From the NCBI GenBank assembly GCA_009787345.1, contig WRGF01000206.1, forward strand, positions 1 to 32,998: a stretch of DNA of 32,998 bases, read 5' to 3'. A model generated the notes under the pieces. The model was not told the DNA's origin and searched no databases. It saw only the letters and a list, made by a program, of their open reading frames with translations. Shown in pieces: positions 1,741-8,056 of this stretch. Numbering within the stretch: the stretch's first letter is position 1; each line of letters starts with the position of its first letter. A program made the translations under genes and the position numbers. The stretch comes from Turicibacter sp. (lineage in GTDB: Bacteria; Bacillota_I; Bacilli_A; MOL361; Turicibacteraceae).

Positions 1741-2393
1741 TATAACCTGACCTCCCTAAATTGCACCGTGATAGCCGTCGTTCCCGCTGTCCTAGTGAGA
1801 ACAATGCTTCCATTGGCGGGTATTTTGAAGTCTGAAAATTTCCATTGCCCTGTTGTCAAGGTTCGGGTCGTTGTCCCCCCACCTGTGTTGGGGTAAGAAA
1901 TTGTCACCGTTCCTGTGGTAATCACCAAAGGGATAGCGTTCAAGGAACCACCGTTAGTGATGGTTGTTGAAGCCCCATTGAACGTTTGGCTCTTCTGGGT
2001 CAAGCGGTAAAAGAAGGGCTTGCAGATGAACTCCAGAAGGATTTCTCCGTACCCTTGCCACGGCTTAAATGAAACGTTGCACCGCCCTTCCAGTTTCCAA
2101 GTAGGGTCGTTGTTGAAAATCAGGTCAACCTTCTTGCCGTGCAAGTCGAATGCCATTTCGTTGCATTTTTGGATATAGTCCAAATGTCCAATTTCAAAAA
2201 AGACGGTCATTTTCACCGTCCTGTCTCCGTATAATGGTTCGCCAGTCAGGCTCTCGGATAAGTCCAAGGAACCGTGGTTGGCGGGTAAGTCAATTAATTT
2301 TTGCTTAATCGGTGGCGGGTCAAGGGAAATATCCTGACCCAGATAACCACCGTAGGCTGAGAGCCATTTTCCGTTAAGCGATACGTCCCTCAT
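1740..2393 (-). CDS. Distal tail protein (Dit)
   Basis: 217 aa, placed between tape measure and Tal as in most siphoviruses of Gram-positive hosts. The N-terminus (DVSLNGKWLSAYGGYL, then GEPLYGDRTVKMTVFF and a FDLHGKKVDLIFNNDPTW segment) fits the Dit/Sipho_tail belt domain. The C-terminal ~70 residues are Thr/Gly-rich beta sequence (TITNGGSLNAIPLVITTG, then TLTTGQWKFSDFKIP), matching the galectin-like second domain of Dit proteins. Dit hexamers form the platform joining the tail tube to Tal and receptor-binding proteins. AAAGGAG precedes the ATG. The length is close to the short, classical Dit form with no inserted carbohydrate-binding module. Confidence 0.85.
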   Translation of the reverse strand: MRDVSLNGKWLSAYGGYLGQDISLDPPPIKQKLIDLPANHGSLDLSESLTGEPLYGDRTVKMTVFFEIGHLDYIQKCNEMAFDLHGKKVDLIFNNDPTWKLEGRCNVSFKPWQGYGEILLEFICKPFFYRLTQKSQTFNGASTTITNGGSLNAIPLVITTGTVTISYPNTGGGTTTRTLTTGQWKFSDFKIPANGSIVLTRTAGTTAITVQFREVRL

Positions 2394-2443
2394 AAGATTT
2401 CTCCTTTGCGAATACGATTGGATAGCTTTTTAAGTCGTAACCA

Positions 2444-5374
2444 TTAAGTCGTAACTCCCCTATTCGCCAATCTGTTATTACTCTGCAACCCCTTGTCAAT
2501 CGGCTTGACCACTTGACCCACCAAAGCACCAGTGTCCAAGATAACTTTCATTTGCGCATTTTCTTTCCTTAGCTCCCTGACTTCTGTAATCAGTTCCCTT
2601 AGCAAGTCGCTGTTTTCTCCTTGACCCATCTGGTCTGAAATTCCTTTGCCGATTCCCGCTAGGACATCGGGCTTCAAAGGGATGACTGCTTCAGCTCCTG
2701 ATTCACCAAAACCTTGGAAAGAACCGTTGGCAAATCCTCCAATGGTTGCTTCATTGAAAATCCCGCCTTCTGCATTCCAAGAGAGTGAGATATGGGGCAA
2801 TTTAGGCAAATCTTTGACCGTCCAACCACCCATTGAAAATGTGGGGATTTTGATTTTTCCGAACAAGTCAGCAAAAGCGTTTTTGATTTTGTCTGAAATC
2901 TCTTTTGCTTTGTCCCAGATTCCTGTGATTTTGGTTTTAATGCCGTCAATTTTATTGGAGATGGTTGCTTTAACAGATTCAAAAATGTTGCTGATTGTCG
3001 TTTTGATGTTATTGAAAATCGTTGAAACTGTTTCTTTGAGCGAGTTGAATTTGCTTTTGATACCCTCCACAACGGCGGTTACTTTTTCTCTAATCCAATT
3101 TACAACAGGCTCAATGATGTTGGTTTTAATAAAGTTCCAAATAACTTGGATTTTATTTTTGAAGTTCTCCCATCGTGATTTCAGGTAGTCAACCATGGCT
3201 CCGATTTTTTCCTTAATCCAGTTGACTACTGGTTCGATGATGTTGGTTTTAACGAAATTCCAGACAGTTAACACAATATTTTTGTAAAACTCCCAAGCAT
3301 TTTTGAAATAAGTCATCAATTTCTCGAAAACAACTTTAATCCTTTCAACCTCTGGCATGATGATTTTATCAAGGATGAAATTCCAAACCGCTTTACATAC
3401 ATCCATGATGAAGTTCCATCCATAAGCAATTCCGTTCCAGAGGGTTACAAGGATGACCAAAATAACTGTGACAACAACGGTGACTACGGTCTTCACGACT
3501 TCCCAAACCGTTGTCCAGAAAGTAATCAGGATGTTCATATAAACCTTGAACGCTGTGACGATTCCGTTCCAGATGGCTTCAAAGTAAGGCTTGACAGCTT
3601 CCCAAACGCCTTTGATTTTGTCCCAAGCTGATGAGAAGAAGCCTGTAATGGCTTCCCAGACACTTGAAGCCACTCCTTTTAGCCAATCCCAAAATGCACT
3701 TGCAACTTTCTTGATGTTCTCCCACATATTAATGAAAAAGTTTCTGAACCCTTCACAATGATTCCAAAGATAAATAAAGCCTGCTACCAATGCGATAACG
3801 ATTGCAACCACAATAATTATCGGATTTGCCATGAGCACACCCCAAAGGGATTGAAGCCCGCCCATCAATGTCCCGACACCTGTTTTCAATAATCCGAATA
3901 CGGCGTTTAGTCCTTTAAATGCTTCTATGGCTTGTTTGATTTCACCCATTTTCGACATAACACCGACAGCAACACCGAATGCAACTGTCACCCCAGTAAC
4001 TACACCGAGTAAAACTCCAAGGACTGTATGCAATAAACCACTTGAATGCTTCCACGCTTCAAACAACCCGACAATAAGGGCACCCAATGCAATCAATGGC
4101 GCCAAAGGAATCATCAAGGCGACAAAACCGCTCGCTAATGAAGCGATGGCAGGCAAACACATCGCACCAACAACGATGGCAATATCTTCAATGATACCGA
4201 ACAAATCTCCTCCATTGTCTATCCATGCCCGAAACTTATCTAGGATTTCAGAAATTTTATTGACCAACGGCTCCATGAGCGGTTGTAATTTCTGCCCAAT
4301 AGTGAGTTGCAACGTTTCCATAGTAGATATTAGTTTTTCACAGGCACCTTTCCAACCTTGTGTTAAAACGTTAGCAGTTTCTTGGGCATAATTCAAATCG
4401 TCCAAGGTATACATATACCCCTCGATTCCTTCTGCTCCTTCATCCATCATTGCTGTGGCTATTTTCATAGATTGTGCACCGAATAAGGTAGTCAAAGCAC
4501 TGTTTCGTTCTTCTTCTGAAAGCCCTGTAAATGCACCTTTAAGCATATCTGCTATTTGAGTAATATTCTTCATAGAACCGTCAGAATTGTAAAGTTCCAA
4601 GTTATACGCTTCCATGACTTTTTGAGCCTGACCTGAGGGTGACACCAATTCTGTAAACATTTGCGTTAACCCAGTTCCCGCTTTTGTCCCATCAATCCCA
4701 TGCTTGGCTAACATTGCCAACGTTCCGGCAGTCATATCAACGGTATTTCCGTATAATGAAAGTGTTGAACCGCAATATTTTAGCCCTTGCATCATGTCAT
4801 CAACCGTCATTGTGGATTTGTCAGCGGAAGATGTCATAACATCCATGACGTGCGAGGTATCCTCTACACCCAAACCAAACATAGAATTGACTTTGATTAA
4901 ATCATCTACTGATTCACCTAAGTCTTTATTGGTAATAATAGCGAAGCTACTGGCTCCGTTCATCATTCCCAACTGTTCGGTAGCTGTTAAACCCGCACGG
5001 CTCATTGATAAGTACCCCTCGGCGATATTATTAGCATTGAATTTTGTATTACTGGCTATTTCCTTTGCTTGTGCATCTAATTTTTTCTGTTCTTCCGCAT
5101 TGGCTCCGCTGATATGCGATACCATGTTCATAGTGCGCTCATAATCCCCCGCCATATCCAAGGCACCTTTTCCGTAAATGGCAAGTCCCGCTCCAATACC
5201 AGTTGCCCATTTCAAAACGGTCGTACTTTTTTTTGTCATGACATCGAACGAATTGTTAAGATTAGAAGCCACTTTCCCGCCCGTGGCGGACAATGATTCC
5301 AATGTTCCTTTAGCTTTGTCTGCTCCCTCGATAGCAATTCTACCTGCGATAGAAAATGATTCCATAAGTCCCAT
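2444..5374 (-). CDS. Tail tape measure protein
   Basis: 976 aa, the longest gene here, with the composition of a TP901-family tape measure protein. The N-terminal ~350 residues contain the conserved phage tail domain (DYERTMNMVSHISGANAEEQ, later GTKAGTGLTQMF and LFGAQSMKIATAMM). Residues ~390-540 hold several long hydrophobic segments, and ~540-830 are rich in regularly spaced Trp/Phe with long alpha-helical character. The C-terminus (VIPLKPDVLAGIGKG) is the usual Gly-rich end. The known rule of about 0.15 nm per residue would give a tail of roughly 145 nm (inference). The gene has a GAGGGGGTGA ribosome binding site and, unusually, a minus-strand terminator just upstream, and it is separated from the tail chaperones by about 2 kb of accessory genes. 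An ATG three codons further in is an alternative start. Confidence 0.95.
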   Translation of the reverse strand: MGLMESFSIAGRIAIEGADKAKGTLESLSATGGKVASNLNNSFDVMTKKSTTVLKWATGIGAGLAIYGKGALDMAGDYERTMNMVSHISGANAEEQKKLDAQAKEIASNTKFNANNIAEGYLSMSRAGLTATEQLGMMNGASSFAIITNKDLGESVDDLIKVNSMFGLGVEDTSHVMDVMTSSADKSTMTVDDMMQGLKYCGSTLSLYGNTVDMTAGTLAMLAKHGIDGTKAGTGLTQMFTELVSPSGQAQKVMEAYNLELYNSDGSMKNITQIADMLKGAFTGLSEEERNSALTTLFGAQSMKIATAMMDEGAEGIEGYMYTLDDLNYAQETANVLTQGWKGACEKLISTMETLQLTIGQKLQPLMEPLVNKISEILDKFRAWIDNGGDLFGIIEDIAIVVGAMCLPAIASLASGFVALMIPLAPLIALGALIVGLFEAWKHSSGLLHTVLGVLLGVVTGVTVAFGVAVGVMSKMGEIKQAIEAFKGLNAVFGLLKTGVGTLMGGLQSLWGVLMANPIIIVVAIVIALVAGFIYLWNHCEGFRNFFINMWENIKKVASAFWDWLKGVASSVWEAITGFFSSAWDKIKGVWEAVKPYFEAIWNGIVTAFKVYMNILITFWTTVWEVVKTVVTVVVTVILVILVTLWNGIAYGWNFIMDVCKAVWNFILDKIIMPEVERIKVVFEKLMTYFKNAWEFYKNIVLTVWNFVKTNIIEPVVNWIKEKIGAMVDYLKSRWENFKNKIQVIWNFIKTNIIEPVVNWIREKVTAVVEGIKSKFNSLKETVSTIFNNIKTTISNIFESVKATISNKIDGIKTKITGIWDKAKEISDKIKNAFADLFGKIKIPTFSMGGWTVKDLPKLPHISLSWNAEGGIFNEATIGGFANGSFQGFGESGAEAVIPLKPDVLAGIGKGISDQMGQGENSDLLRELITEVRELRKENAQMKVILDTGALVGQVVKPIDKGLQSNNRLANRGVTT
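3091..3260 (-). repeat. 41-codon direct repeat inside tape measure gene
   Basis: Two near-identical segments begin at 3091 and 3214 on the plus strand, 123 bases apart, encoding KTNIIEPVVNWI twice followed by [KR]EK. A period of 41 residues with recurring Trp positions fits a duplication of a tape-measure helical unit, a known way in which tail length changes. Confidence 0.75.
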
Positions 5375-5394: not shown

Positions 5395-5418
5395 AAAAAA
5401 AGACGAACATAGTCGTCT
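5395..5418 (-). terminator. Intrinsic terminator just before the tape measure gene
   Basis: On the minus strand a 6-bp stem AGACGA / TCGTCT with a 6-nt loop is followed by a run of T. It lies about 20 bases before the tape measure start codon. It would end transcripts from the accessory island and could reduce tape measure transcription unless a phage antiterminator or readthrough operates. The stem is short, so efficiency is uncertain. Confidence 0.6.
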
Positions 5419-5446: not shown

Positions 5447-5478
5447 TTGTCATCTTTTGTCATTGTCAGTCATATACT
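5447..5478 (+). promoter_or_regulatory. Possible promoter region for the 30-aa peptide
   Basis: A good -10-like TATACT lies at 5473-5478, upstream of an AAGGAGG (5484-5490) and the hairpin that hides the ribosome binding site. TTGTCA occurs three times upstream (5447, 5457, 5463), but none is 16-18 bases from TATACT: the closest useful spacing is 20. The repeated TTGTCA may be a weak -35 or a protein-binding repeat. The assignment is tentative. Confidence 0.35.
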
Positions 5479-5501
5479 GTATTAAGGAGGGCATAAGAAA
5501 A

Positions 5502-5522
5502 CACCTCCGAAGAAGGGAGGTG
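5502..5522 (+). promoter_or_regulatory. Hairpin sequestering the ribosome binding site of the 30-aa peptide
   Basis: CACCTCC (5502-5508) pairs perfectly over 7 bp with GGAGGTG (5516-5522) across a 7-nt loop. The second arm contains the GGAGG ribosome binding site, 8 bases before the ATG at 5529, so the mRNA should be translationally closed. A second AAGGAGG at 5484-5490 could compete for the same CCTCC and open the structure, or serve as a ribosome standby site. On the opposite strand the same hairpin is followed by TTTTCTT and can act as the terminator of the antisense RNA. Confidence 0.75.
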
Positions 5523-5528
5523 CATCCT

Positions 5529-5621
5529 ATGAAGCATCTTCTGATATTCATGATAATTCTAGTATTCTTCCTTGACACGGCGGAACTAGAATTTATCGAA
5601 GCGATAGCCAAGGCTATCTAG
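5529..5621 (+). CDS. 30-aa membrane peptide, candidate type I toxin
   Basis: A plus-strand ORF in the middle of a minus-strand late operon. It encodes 30 aa: a single hydrophobic helix (KHLLIFMIILVFFL, residues 2-15) followed by an acidic amphipathic tail (DTAELEFIEAIAKAI). It has a near-ideal ribosome binding site (GGGAGG, 8 bases from ATG), but that site is buried in a perfect 7-bp hairpin. It has its own intrinsic terminator four bases after the stop and is covered by a predicted convergent antisense RNA. These traits together match type I toxins of Bacillota (TxpA, BsrG/BsrE, Fst types), which insert into or perturb the membrane. I do not recognise the peptide itself as a named family. 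A small phage membrane protein without an antitoxin is the main alternative. Confidence 0.6.
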   Translation: MKHLLIFMIILVFFLDTAELEFIEAIAKAI

Positions 5622-5624
5622 CGG

Positions 5625-5652
5625 AAAGCCACCCTTGCCGGGGTGGTTTTTC
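5625..5652 (+). terminator. Intrinsic terminator of the 30-aa peptide gene
   Basis: CCACCC (5629-5634) pairs with GGGTGG (5641-5646) around a 6-nt loop. The stem extends by a G-U and three A-T pairs, with the T-run at 5647-5651. It begins four bases after the stop codon and works on the plus strand. Confidence 0.85.
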
Positions 5653-5659
5653 CTTTACT

Positions 5660-5690
5660 AGTATATGCAGTGAATGGGCAGATATGTAAA
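5660..5690 (-). promoter_or_regulatory. Candidate promoter for antisense RNA
   Basis: On the minus strand TATACT (5660-5665) is preceded by TTTACA (5685-5690) with a 19-bp spacer, or TTACAT with 18. Five of six -10 bases match TATAAT. It lies downstream of the Excalibur gene and points toward the 30-aa peptide locus. Confidence 0.45.
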
Positions 5691-5698
5691 CAGAAGTC

Positions 5699-6442
5699 TT
5701 ACTCACAGCCCCATCCGTCATTATCACGGTCAAATTTTGGTCTATAAGCGGGATGGTCAGCAGGAACTCCGCTAGGGAAGTCTACCCTAAGTTCTGTGCA
5801 GTTTTGGTACTCCCTAAAAACTTCTACCTGCGGTTCGGGTTCTGGAATGGGGTCAGGCTCTTGAATCGGTTCAGGAGTTGGGGCTGATTCAACTTGGACA
5901 AAGGGTTCAGGTTCTTCTTCTACCTGTACCTCGACTGCTTGCATCGTTTGTTGTTGTACTGGTTGTGCATTTTGAGTAGTAGTTTCTTCCGGCTCTTCAA
6001 CCACTTCTTCAATGACATTTTCAACGACTTCTTCCGGTTCTTCAATATTTTCTTCGGTGATTTCCTCAACATCTTCAACAGGTTCTTCCTCTATTTTTTC
6101 TTCCTCTTTCACCTCAAATGTTCGTGAACCACTCACAGGGTCGTTAGCAATATCAACGCCCACTGCCCCGCCCAAAAGTATAAAAATTCCTAAGACAGTT
6201 AAAAATTTGTTGCTATACTGCTTTTTGATTGGATACCATGTAATGATACCTATTTTCCTACCTATTGCATAGACAATTAATATAATTCCTATAAAGACAC
6301 CGAACCCCTGTAATGGCGAAACGAGCGCTAAGATAATGGGAAAGATAAAGAACAACCATAAAAGCCATTTCAAAAATGTTTTTCTTTTTTTCTTTCGGGG
6401 TTTTGGCTTTATTTTTTCCATCTCTTCCTGTAAGTTGGGCAT
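5699..6442 (-). CDS. Membrane-anchored Glu/Pro-rich protein with C-terminal Excalibur domain
   Basis: 247 aa. The N-terminus is strongly basic (KPKPRKKKRK, residues 12-21), followed by hydrophobic segments at about 25-42, 47-67 and 80-98. A long acidic, Glu-rich region (110-155) and a Pro/Glu-rich spacer (172-206) lead to a C-terminal Excalibur domain at 212-247: NCTEL, GVPADHPAYRP, then the calcium-binding-type DRDNDGWGCE with paired Cys215 and Cys246. Excalibur domains are extracellular calcium-binding modules, so the tail probably faces outside the cell with the spacer crossing the wall. Such a gene is not a virion component of standard siphoviruses. A lysogenic-conversion or superinfection-exclusion role is conceivable (inference). 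It stands alone between terminators, so it probably has its own promoter, which I could not define. Confidence 0.75.
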   Translation of the reverse strand: MPNLQEEMEKIKPKPRKKKRKTFLKWLLWLFFIFPIILALVSPLQGFGVFIGIILIVYAIGRKIGIITWYPIKKQYSNKFLTVLGIFILLGGAVGVDIANDPVSGSRTFEVKEEEKIEEEPVEDVEEITEENIEEPEEVVENVIEEVVEEPEETTTQNAQPVQQQTMQAVEVQVEEEPEPFVQVESAPTPEPIQEPDPIPEPEPQVEVFREYQNCTELRVDFPSGVPADHPAYRPKFDRDNDGWGCE

Positions 6443-6540
6443 CGCAATCCCTCATTTCTTAGAAAATTAACTACTTCAAATGATATGAGGGATGAGATGA
6501 CTTTATGACATAAAACGTTTTCTTAATTCATATCTTTTAA

Positions 6541-6777: not shown

Positions 6778-7176
6778 CTATAAATTATCCACTATCGCTT
6801 CAATAGGTATGTTCAATTCTTCAATAAATTTCAAGAGTTTTTGAAATGGCTCTGGGTTCATTCTCCCAATGACTTCAAAGTCAATTTTTTCTTTTTTGAA
6901 AAAATAAAATTGTTCTGTCTTGACAAAGCCATCTTTGCCGTTGTTCGGATTTGTCAGTAAGTCCCCATTTTTCACTTCAAAATTGCCACGGAATTTTAAC
7001 TTCTTTTCTCGTTGCTGTGGATTTTTGAAAGATGACATGACATTGCAAACCATATCATAATCAAGACTTGAAATTTTTCCATCCTTGTCGTTGATGACTA
7101 CAAAGGAGTGCCTACCGATTAATTTGTCACCGTGCTTATAGTTTTCAACGATTAAAATATCTCCCGCCTTACACAT
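6778..7176 (-). CDS. PemK/MazF-like protein, candidate toxin
   Basis: 132 aa. The start CKAGDILIVENYKHGDK, followed by GRHSFVVINDKDGKI, resembles the opening strands of the PemK/MazF fold (GDI/GDV, then VV[IL] followed by Asp/Asn). Downstream are YDMVCNVMSSF and GKDGFVKTEQFYFF, consistent with a compact beta-barrel with helices. MazF proteins are ribosome-independent mRNA endonucleases. I cannot confirm the catalytic Arg/Thr pair by eye. It overlaps an upstream acidic 54-aa gene by 8 bases, has no internal ribosome binding site of note, and is followed by a terminator: the layout of an antitoxin-toxin operon. Alternatively it may belong to a phage family only related in fold. Family assignment is moderate. 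Confidence 0.55.
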   Translation of the reverse strand: MCKAGDILIVENYKHGDKLIGRHSFVVINDKDGKISSLDYDMVCNVMSSFKNPQQREKKLKFRGNFEVKNGDLLTNPNNGKDGFVKTEQFYFFKKEKIDFEVIGRMNPEPFQKLLKFIEELNIPIEAIVDNL

Positions 7177-7333
7177 CTTCCTGCTCCTCTACCCACACAT
7201 CTGTGATAATAATTTTCGCTTTCCCACTCAATACTTCTTCTGACCAGTCAATCGGGGTCACATCTTTTAGGGCTTCCTCTGTGGAAATAAAACGCACTTC
7301 TCTTGTTTTTAAAAATTCCTTCATATCGAACAT
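7169..7333 (-). CDS. 54-aa acidic protein, candidate antitoxin
   Basis: 54 aa, beginning MFDMKEFLKTREVRF and ending IIITDVWVEEQEDV. It is acidic, with the C-terminal dozen residues dominated by Glu and Asp as in small type II antitoxins whose tail wraps the toxin. AGGAGGTG precedes the ATG at an ideal distance. The stop overlaps the start of the PemK/MazF-like gene by 8 bases, so the pair is translationally coupled, antitoxin first. I see no obvious DNA-binding domain. The upstream promoter at 7396-7424 serves only this pair. The function is inferred from context. Confidence 0.55.
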   Translation of the reverse strand: MFDMKEFLKTREVRFISTEEALKDVTPIDWSEEVLSGKAKIIITDVWVEEQEDV

Positions 7334-7395
7334 CCCAACACCTCCTTGACGGCTTCGTAGATAGTATATGTCATTTTGCGAGTTTAATTGTCTTT

Positions 7396-7430: not shown

Positions 7431-8056
7431 TTAAGTCGGCTTAAATCCATTCAAAATATTCTGGCTATCGTTCACAACCCTGTCCACACGCTCTTTGTCC
7501 ATCCCCGATTGTTTGACCTTAGCCGTGTGACCTACGACTTGCTTCTTCCAGTCCTCATAGTTTTTATCTGCCTGTGAAGCTAAATACATTGACCACAGCT
7601 TATCTTCATTCATGTCGTTGTACATTTCCTGAATGGCTTCCAAGAAATCCCCTTCAAATGCCGTTTCTAGCCATTTTAAGGGGTCATGGTAGCGTTTGAA
7701 TAAGTCATTGGTAAATTTACTTACTCCGATTTCAGCAATGCACTGGCACGCTCGATAGCCTTGGAAAAACCCGGTTGTTTCACATATGCTCCCACTAGGT
7801 CGATGAAGTCACCCAAGTCTAGGGCGCTGATTTCCGGCAAGGAAAGGTCTGACCCTTTGGCAAGGAGTTGGTAAATCTCATGCTCGCATTTATCCAAGTT
7901 TCCTAAGATAGTTTGAATCATCATGACCCCTAGTGCTTGTTGGTTGTCCCCCGCTGACTTGATTAATTCTGGGAGTGATTTGAGGTCGATTTTAGATACG
8001 ACTTTAGTTAGTAAAAAGAGGTCGCTTGCTTGCAAGCCCTTAAATTTAAATTCCAT
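7431..8056 (-). CDS. Tail assembly chaperone gpGT, -1 frameshift product
   Basis: Predicted 208-aa fusion made by a -1 ribosomal frameshift at GGGTTTT (7766-7772). After codon 97 of gpG, translation would continue as FQGYRACQCIAEIGVSKF and run open to the stop at 7431. The T part includes NDLFKRYHDPLKWLETAF and ends VVNDSQNILNGFKPT. This is the gpG/gpGT organisation of lambda-type long-tailed phages, in which the two chaperones coat and load the tape measure protein in a defined ratio. No separate start with a ribosome binding site is visible for the T part, which supports frameshifting. Downstream, the tape measure gene is displaced by 2 kb of accessory DNA. Confidence 0.8.
7721..8056 (-). 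CDS. Tail assembly chaperone gpG
   Basis: 111 aa, MEFKFKGLQASDLFLLTK to SALLKSE. The size, the helical Asp/Leu-rich composition and the position between tail tube genes and tape measure fit the tail chaperone G family of Bacillota siphoviruses. AAAGGAAAG precedes the ATG. It ends in the zero frame 45 bases past the slippery site. gpG is not part of the finished virion: it binds tape measure protein during tail assembly (family knowledge). Confidence 0.8.
   Translation of the reverse strand: MEFKFKGLQASDLFLLTKVVSKIDLKSLPELIKSAGDNQQALGVMMIQTILGNLDKCEHEIYQLLAKGSDLSLPEISALDLGDFIDLVGAYVKQPGFSKAIERASALLKSE
7766..7772 (-). other. Programmed -1 frameshift heptamer GGGTTTT
   Basis: On the minus strand the gpG frame reads CCG GGT TTT TCC, so G GGT TTT matches the X XXY YYZ slippery pattern. 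Five T in a row follow GGG. The -1 frame then stays open for 111 codons. I see no clear downstream pseudoknot, as in lambda G-T, where the heptamer alone is the main element. Confidence 0.85.

Follow-up and report, generated by a model that had tools for sequence, protein, structure and literature searches.

Short genes for hydrophobic peptides are readily passed over in normal annotation, and the question raised here is whether one of them is the toxin of a type I toxin-antitoxin system. The window, meaning the whole stretch of DNA analysed, is a phage-type contig of 32,998 bases (C206) from a 3.1-Mb genome; the same contig is present in IMG/VR. Its structural genes lie on the minus strand, with the capsid and head genes to the right. 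Between the tape measure gene (2444–5374, minus strand; PhageMin_Tail, E = 7e-39) and two tail chaperone genes (7721–8056 and about 7431–7700), a 30-codon membrane-peptide gene is present on the plus strand, as the original prediction had described (ORF MKHLLIFMIILVFFLDTAELEFIEAIAKAI, 5529–5618; stop codon 5619–5621). The features of the locus are collected in Table 1.

Table 1. Features of the candidate module, in window coordinates
Feature	Position	Strand	Evidence
Second minus-strand terminator, AGACGAC..GTCGTCT-like stem followed by a T-run	5401..5418	-	Terminator scan
Predicted sense (toxin) promoter: GTCATCT, 15 nt, CATATACT	5449..5478	+	Motif recurrence; same box in L024
SD-like AAGGAGG upstream, where the mRNA is predicted to begin	5484..5490	+	Minimum-energy fold; GGAGG or near-GGAGG similarly placed elsewhere
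Predicted antisense RNA antitoxin, about 159 nt, spanning ORF, start codon and SD	5495..5653	-	Six other loci with 154–180 nt
Dual-use hairpin, CACCTCC-GAAGAAG-GGAGGTG	5502..5522	both	Folds; terminator scan; six further loci
Alternative fold hiding SD and start codon, pairing with GCATCTTC (codons 2–5, 5534–5541)	5509..5546	+	Mainly the window copy
Toxin-like membrane peptide, 30 aa	5529..5621	+	Homologues C60 and C140; window–C60 codon-position pattern
Sense terminator (GGAAAGCCACCC..GGGTGGTTTTTCC)	about 5623..5653	+	Fold; counterparts in relatives
-10 region predicted for the antisense RNA, TGCATATACT (start near 5653)	5660..5669	-	Same box at relatives

Recurrence of the layout at seven loci

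The peptide has no family match in Pfam, NCBIfam or PHROG, as anticipated from its appearance, and the module has none in Rfam. When the peptide was compared with the genome to which the window belongs, a second match, a weak one, was obtained on contig C60 (E = 0.76), where the whole plan could be read: CATATACT, GGAGG, AAAAAACACCCCC-loop-GGAGGTG, ATG, a 32-residue peptide, GCCACCC..GGGTGGTTTTT, and, in the reverse orientation, GCATATACT. The viral contig L015 has the C60 copy too. A third copy, on contig C140, was found only by the protein profile built from these two peptides (E = 1.9e-4), and the hairpin, T-tail, promoter boxes and terminators on the right strands were seen after the profile match. 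The C60 and C140 peptides are 40% and 37% identical in amino acids to that of the window.

Another phage contig (L024) was found by the promoter and hairpin pattern, the hydrophobic ORF and the terminator being seen afterwards. The hairpin pattern also identified a rumen metagenome-assembled genome in a collection of 84,980 species genomes. An adjoining second copy came from a generic detector (the first pair being L035a and L035b), and a third in the same genome (L191) from an RNA model; in L035b and L191 the consensus antisense promoters came to light only after the copies had been identified. The rumen bacterium has three versions, with peptides of 20–23 residues. A promoter-like box, a hairpin over the Shine-Dalgarno sequence (SD), a short hydrophobic ORF and a predicted T-tailed antisense RNA ending in the hairpin are common to all seven loci (C206, C60, C140, L024, L035a, L035b and L191), and the maximal hydropathy over 15 residues is 1.9–3.05 in every detected copy. 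Recurrence of the peptide and of the two-strand anatomy is what a type I locus predicts; its presence at independent loci supports the original proposal, at the level of sequence. The group with 30–32 residues and the rumen group with 20–23 residues may share the plan only, and not descent.

The detector, defined as an SD in a hairpin with a T-tailed antisense plus a short hydrophobic ORF, gave no hit in 9.9 Mb of shuffled strand-bases and none in 1.0 Mb of other phages with related tape measure genes. Among 395 genomes of the class, searched with the pattern and RNA model R2, the module was found in the genome of the window contig only; the class search rests on R2, since E-values of model R1 reflect mere sequence likeness. 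Phages searched at the nucleotide level with the modules of the window and L024 gave no match, and among 58 loci of tape measure relatives the module was in L024 itself only (L051). Several candidates were rejected. Nucleotide matches of L035 in phages are short and partial and look like AT-rich noise. The matches L013, L014, L021–L023, L025, L026, L029–L050 (except L035 and the known members), L141 and L145 fit the pattern by chance, as either the ORF or the antisense parts are missing. Weak RNA-model matches at C140:2997, elsewhere in the same genome and in six other genomes of the class are not modules.

Codon comparison bears on the peptide itself. Between the window and C60 genes, 17, 21 and 6 of 30 codons agree at codon positions 1, 2 and 3, respectively (p ~1e-4), different codons are used at 8 of the 12 identical residues, and other frames align poorly. 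The pattern points clearly to coding selection on the peptide, a feature of the type I class. Synonymous bias among homologues, whose absence would have counted against the original prediction, was found for this pair; selection is weak between C60 and C140 (p = 0.02), and none was detected between the window and C140 (p = 0.25).

One hairpin on two strands

The hairpin described in the original prediction was confirmed. Its perfect 7-bp stem joins CACCTCC (5502–5508) to GGAGGTG (5516–5522), with -11.8 kcal/mol when folded alone. On the plus strand the 3' arm holds the toxin SD (GGAGG, 5516–5520). On the minus strand the same hairpin is a listed terminator with the tail TTTTCTTATG (T-run 5501–5498), in line with the TTTTCTT pointed out earlier. 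In the fold of lowest energy, that CCTCC is paired, as proposed, with the second AAGGAGG, at 5484–5490, and the SD shifts into a second hairpin with codons 2–5. The upstream AAGGAGG could thus compete for CACCTCC with the true SD; it could also offer the ribosome a standby site. Whatever the length of the transcript, the SD is hardly ever left free in the predicted ensemble, its partner being either CACCTCC or codons 2–5. Fold stability relative to shuffled sequences is z = -4.5 for the mRNA and z = -4.1 for the antisense strand. The downstream anti-SD element is inconsistent in C140, L024 and L035.

The hairpin was found again at all six further loci. One position is unpaired on the sense strand in four of the seven copies, each time as C-A. 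The same position is G-U on the antisense strand, so that the antisense stem as drawn is free of mismatches at every locus. The antisense hairpin is the more stable at six of the seven loci, and a T-tail is present at all. This suggests a terminator selected on the antisense strand while the SD keeps its A on the sense strand. The rule is only suggestive, because some copies came from mismatch-tolerant patterns and covariation is not significant: both the patterns and the detector permitted this mismatch, which makes for a partial ascertainment bias, and the discovery of C140 did not depend on it. Covariation of the hairpin, a check named at the outset, did not reach significance in a formal count over the six sequences. 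If upheld, the asymmetry between C-A and G-U would offer a sequence-only way to tell which strand's hairpin is selected.

Three terminator-like sites were found between 5300 and 5900, all on the minus strand, against 0.4 ± 0.7 in shuffled sequences. Two of them lie on the operon strand between the chaperone and tape measure genes (5522–5495 and 5418–5401), as would be expected of a late-operon attenuator placed before the tape measure gene, with the plus-strand ORF incidental. Such an attenuator is very improbable given that C60, C140 and L035 have the hairpin in contexts that are not related, each time with a small ORF, and that the ORF shows coding selection.

Promoters, terminators and the predicted antisense RNA

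For a type I module, each strand should carry its own transcription signals. The predicted sense -10 box is TATACT at 5473–5478, with a start near 5485. The motif GTCATNT-N(14-16)-CATATAMT occurs three times in the 3.1-Mb genome, two of them at these loci, and not once in the reversed control; with so few occurrences, GTCATNT-N15-CATATAMT was rejected as a general, sporulation-sigma-like promoter of the host. On the other strand, the promoter-like TATACT that had been reported is present at 5665–5660. The antisense box reads GCATATACT in C60, TCATAAACT in C140 and GCATAAAAT in L024, and convergent CATATACT promoter-like boxes stand on both sides of the window unit. Both window promoters lack a canonical -35 and a generic sigma-70 scan calls neither, so that the case for them depends on conservation across loci; the -10 boxes of the window group are convincing as promoter candidates through conservation only.

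The rumen copies have stronger signals. A perfect TTGACA/TATAAT is found at the place of the antisense promoter in L035a, L035b and L191 (TTGACA-17-TATAAT in L191). Over 1.8 kb of L035, the only four promoters matching TTGACA/TATAAT at 12 of 12 positions are those assigned to the sense and antisense strands of its two copies, and the antisense terminator lies over the SD in both. No other single observation argues as strongly for the reality of the plan as this promoter set, the predicted antisense signals being unmistakable there.

The intrinsic terminator said to follow the gene is seen in the fold. It is missing from the output of a simple terminator scan, probably owing to partial pairing of its T-run; the same scan does report the counterparts in two relatives. 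GCCACCC..GGGTGGTTTTT is found 3' of the ORF in C60 and C140 too, and L024 has a related terminator. The predicted antisense RNA measures 154–180 nt at the six other loci (L024 by hand). An antisense RNA gene with its own promoter and terminator is thus predicted from these signals.

The position of the sense terminator also bears on whether the ORF could be a leader peptide regulating a downstream gene. Each rumen copy is followed by a small DNA-binding-like gene on the same strand, as a leader would be. The terminator is directly 3' of the stop codon in the window, C60, C140 and L024, and the next gene is on the opposite strand in the window and L024, which leaves a leader function with hardly any probability.

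Genomic context of the copies

The contigs that carry the copies are of phage or other mobile type. In the window and in L024, the module lies between the tape measure and tail chaperone genes, against the late operon. The C60/L015 copy is in a different phage region, near antirepressor/terminase-type genes, and the C140 copy has a skipping-rope RNA and a gene for an ImmA-like protease close by. With this varied placement the module behaves as mobile cargo. The position in the window, originally considered unusual, is less odd than it seemed: the spot between chaperone and tape measure genes serves as a moron site both here and in the phage of L024, which has the module there too.

Other genes were observed at these sites. 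In the window, 6778–7176 (minus) encodes a PemK/MazF-like protein (PF02452, 21.9 bits, slightly short of the cut-off of 23.1); with the small ORF upstream (start near 7313) it probably forms a type II toxin-antitoxin pair, which shares the moron site with the module. Another moron, at 5699–6442 (minus), encodes a protein with a membrane N-terminus, a long acidic repeat and a C-terminal Excalibur domain (PF05901, E = 2e-11). CATATACT and CATATCAT boxes are present at about 7364–7374 (minus) and 6488–6520 (minus), before the PemK-like pair and the Excalibur gene; the extra genes therefore seem to own promoters of one type. The terminator at 5401–5418 (minus), just before the tape measure gene, is odd in a late operon unless antitermination operates. 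In L024, an HSDR_N protein (1972–3078, plus; PF04313, E = 6e-16), with a type I restriction domain and the rest of the enzyme absent, is encoded between the tape measure gene and the module. The skipping-rope RNA (RF02924, 56.5 bits; L018:1169–1243, plus) lies about 200 nt upstream of the C140 module promoter.

In the rumen genome, a small CRISPR-like array (L035:5157–5389) is found between the two adjoining modules, with a 37-nt repeat, TACCTACAATAGTAGGCATTTAAGGTAGTTATTAGAC, in three good copies and one degenerate at a spacing of 64–68; the reverse complement of the repeat has a Cas12a-type look by eye. Type I toxin-antitoxin pairs adjoining CRISPR arrays are known in C. difficile (PMC6563280). 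Each rumen module is then followed by a paralogous gene for a small, DNA-binding-like protein of 62 residues (MEDIKKRN.. family; L035 4459–4647 and 5850–6038, minus; L191 about 984–1172, plus), with no confident Pfam match.

The presence of several other morons at the same spot could also mean that the peptide, as a small membrane protein, serves the phage in some other way (superinfection exclusion, holin-like function or lysogenic conversion), regulated by antisense RNA and not part of an addiction module. Short hydrophobic phage peptides of many functions exist. This alternative is unlikely: placement differs among the window and L024, C60/L015 and C140, the C-termini of the peptides vary widely, and type I toxins typically combine tight hiding of the SD with an antisense gene across their full ORF.

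Proposed mechanism

With high probability, the locus is a moron of a phage or prophage and forms an autonomous type I toxin-antitoxin module. The plus strand would give a short mRNA (about 5485–5653) for a single-helix membrane peptide of 30 residues. As the SD would be hidden twice, by the upstream CACCTCC and by the downstream element in codons 2–5, little peptide would be made from the intact mRNA. On the minus strand, a separate promoter just beyond the sense terminator would give rise to an antisense RNA of about 160 nt, running back over the ORF, the start codon and the SD to stop at the very palindrome that locks the SD. The sense-antisense duplex would block initiation and feed a double-strand RNase. 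Were the element lost, a short-lived antisense RNA would disappear first, and peptide made from the remaining mRNA would damage the membrane. We infer transcription of both strands, toxicity, the RNA stabilities and the role in maintenance of the element; by analogy, prophage maintenance is the likeliest role here.

The orientation against the late operon suggests a further link. Late minus-strand transcription would add RNA complementary to the toxin mRNA, so that the toxin may be quieted during lysis, a proposal open to experiment. Late transcription may itself need antitermination to pass the terminators at 5522–5495 and 5418–5401.

A wider proposal is advanced tentatively. One palindrome may have two jobs, as lock of the toxin SD and as terminator of the antitoxin, the C-A pair loosening the lock while its G-U counterpart spares the terminator. 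The plan is found in two groups with sequence-unrelated peptides, one in phages of this bacterium and another viral contig, the other in the rumen bacterium, where two copies flank the CRISPR-like array; it is possible that they belong to a wider unrecognised class. For type I systems, which are hard to find because their genes are too short for normal annotation, the locus would add an uncatalogued peptide family and a searchable two-strand signature.

Comparison with known type I systems

The original prediction held that TxpA/RatA, BsrG/SR4 and Fst use the same tricks. The likeness stands for the short membrane toxin, the cis antisense RNA and the association with mobile elements, and BsrG also has its SD in a stem. 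It fails for the geometry of the overlap: the RNAs of TxpA/RatA, BsrG/SR4 and Fst (RNA I/RNA II) overlap at their 3' ends, whereas here the antisense runs through the SD. The TxpA/RatA and Fst layout, in which the antitoxin leaves the SD uncovered, was found at none of the loci, the predicted antisense running through the SD at each. No sequence match to Fst, TxpA or other catalogued toxin families was found, nor any Rfam match over the module.

In C. difficile, CD0977.1/RCd11, CD0956.3 and their relatives are prophage-borne, with toxins of 34–47 residues, and help prophage maintenance (PMC7699646, PMC6563280). Several copies per genome, a convergent gene pair and similar promoters on both strands are shared with the present module. 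Compared by description, these toxins have a hydrophobic N-terminus and a positively charged tail, whereas the window peptide has a charged/polar tail that is not basic.

The predicted mRNA, with its upstream and downstream anti-SD hairpins, also recalls aapA/IsoA. In aapA3 of Helicobacter pylori an upstream anti-SD masks the SD at first, and one within the ORF, downstream, does so later (PMC6733600). The likeness is confined to the SD hairpins predicted for the window, whereas the published regulation of aapA/IsoA includes a 5'-3' long-distance interaction and 3' trimming. The predicted antisense here extends over the ORF, start codon and SD. IsoA spans less of its gene.

The closest anatomy is that of ibs/Sib of E. 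coli. Both have a very short hydrophobic toxin in several copies per genome. Sib covers the ibs ORF and ribosome site (PMC4147584), and the predicted antisense RNA (5653–5495) spans the ORF (5529–5621) and the SD (5516–5520) alike. The differences are the length of the window peptide (30 residues) and its tail, carriage by phages, and, possibly, an antisense terminator that is at the same time the SD hairpin. The rumen peptide MIKIIILIVVFIILLSGFAY presumably resembles Ibs peptides, judged by eye, and is taken as a lead only. Membership of the Ibs family was not found: the window, C60, C140, L024 and rumen peptides have no Pfam or NCBIfam match, such short queries being a weak test. Because the sequence features of type I systems are present, no catalogued family matches, and the layout is not that of TxpA/RatA or Fst, the module very probably represents a new toxin-antitoxin family, although a dual use of the hairpin may have gone unnoticed in systems already described. 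It would combine an ibs/Sib-like layout with a hairpin that serves both strands.
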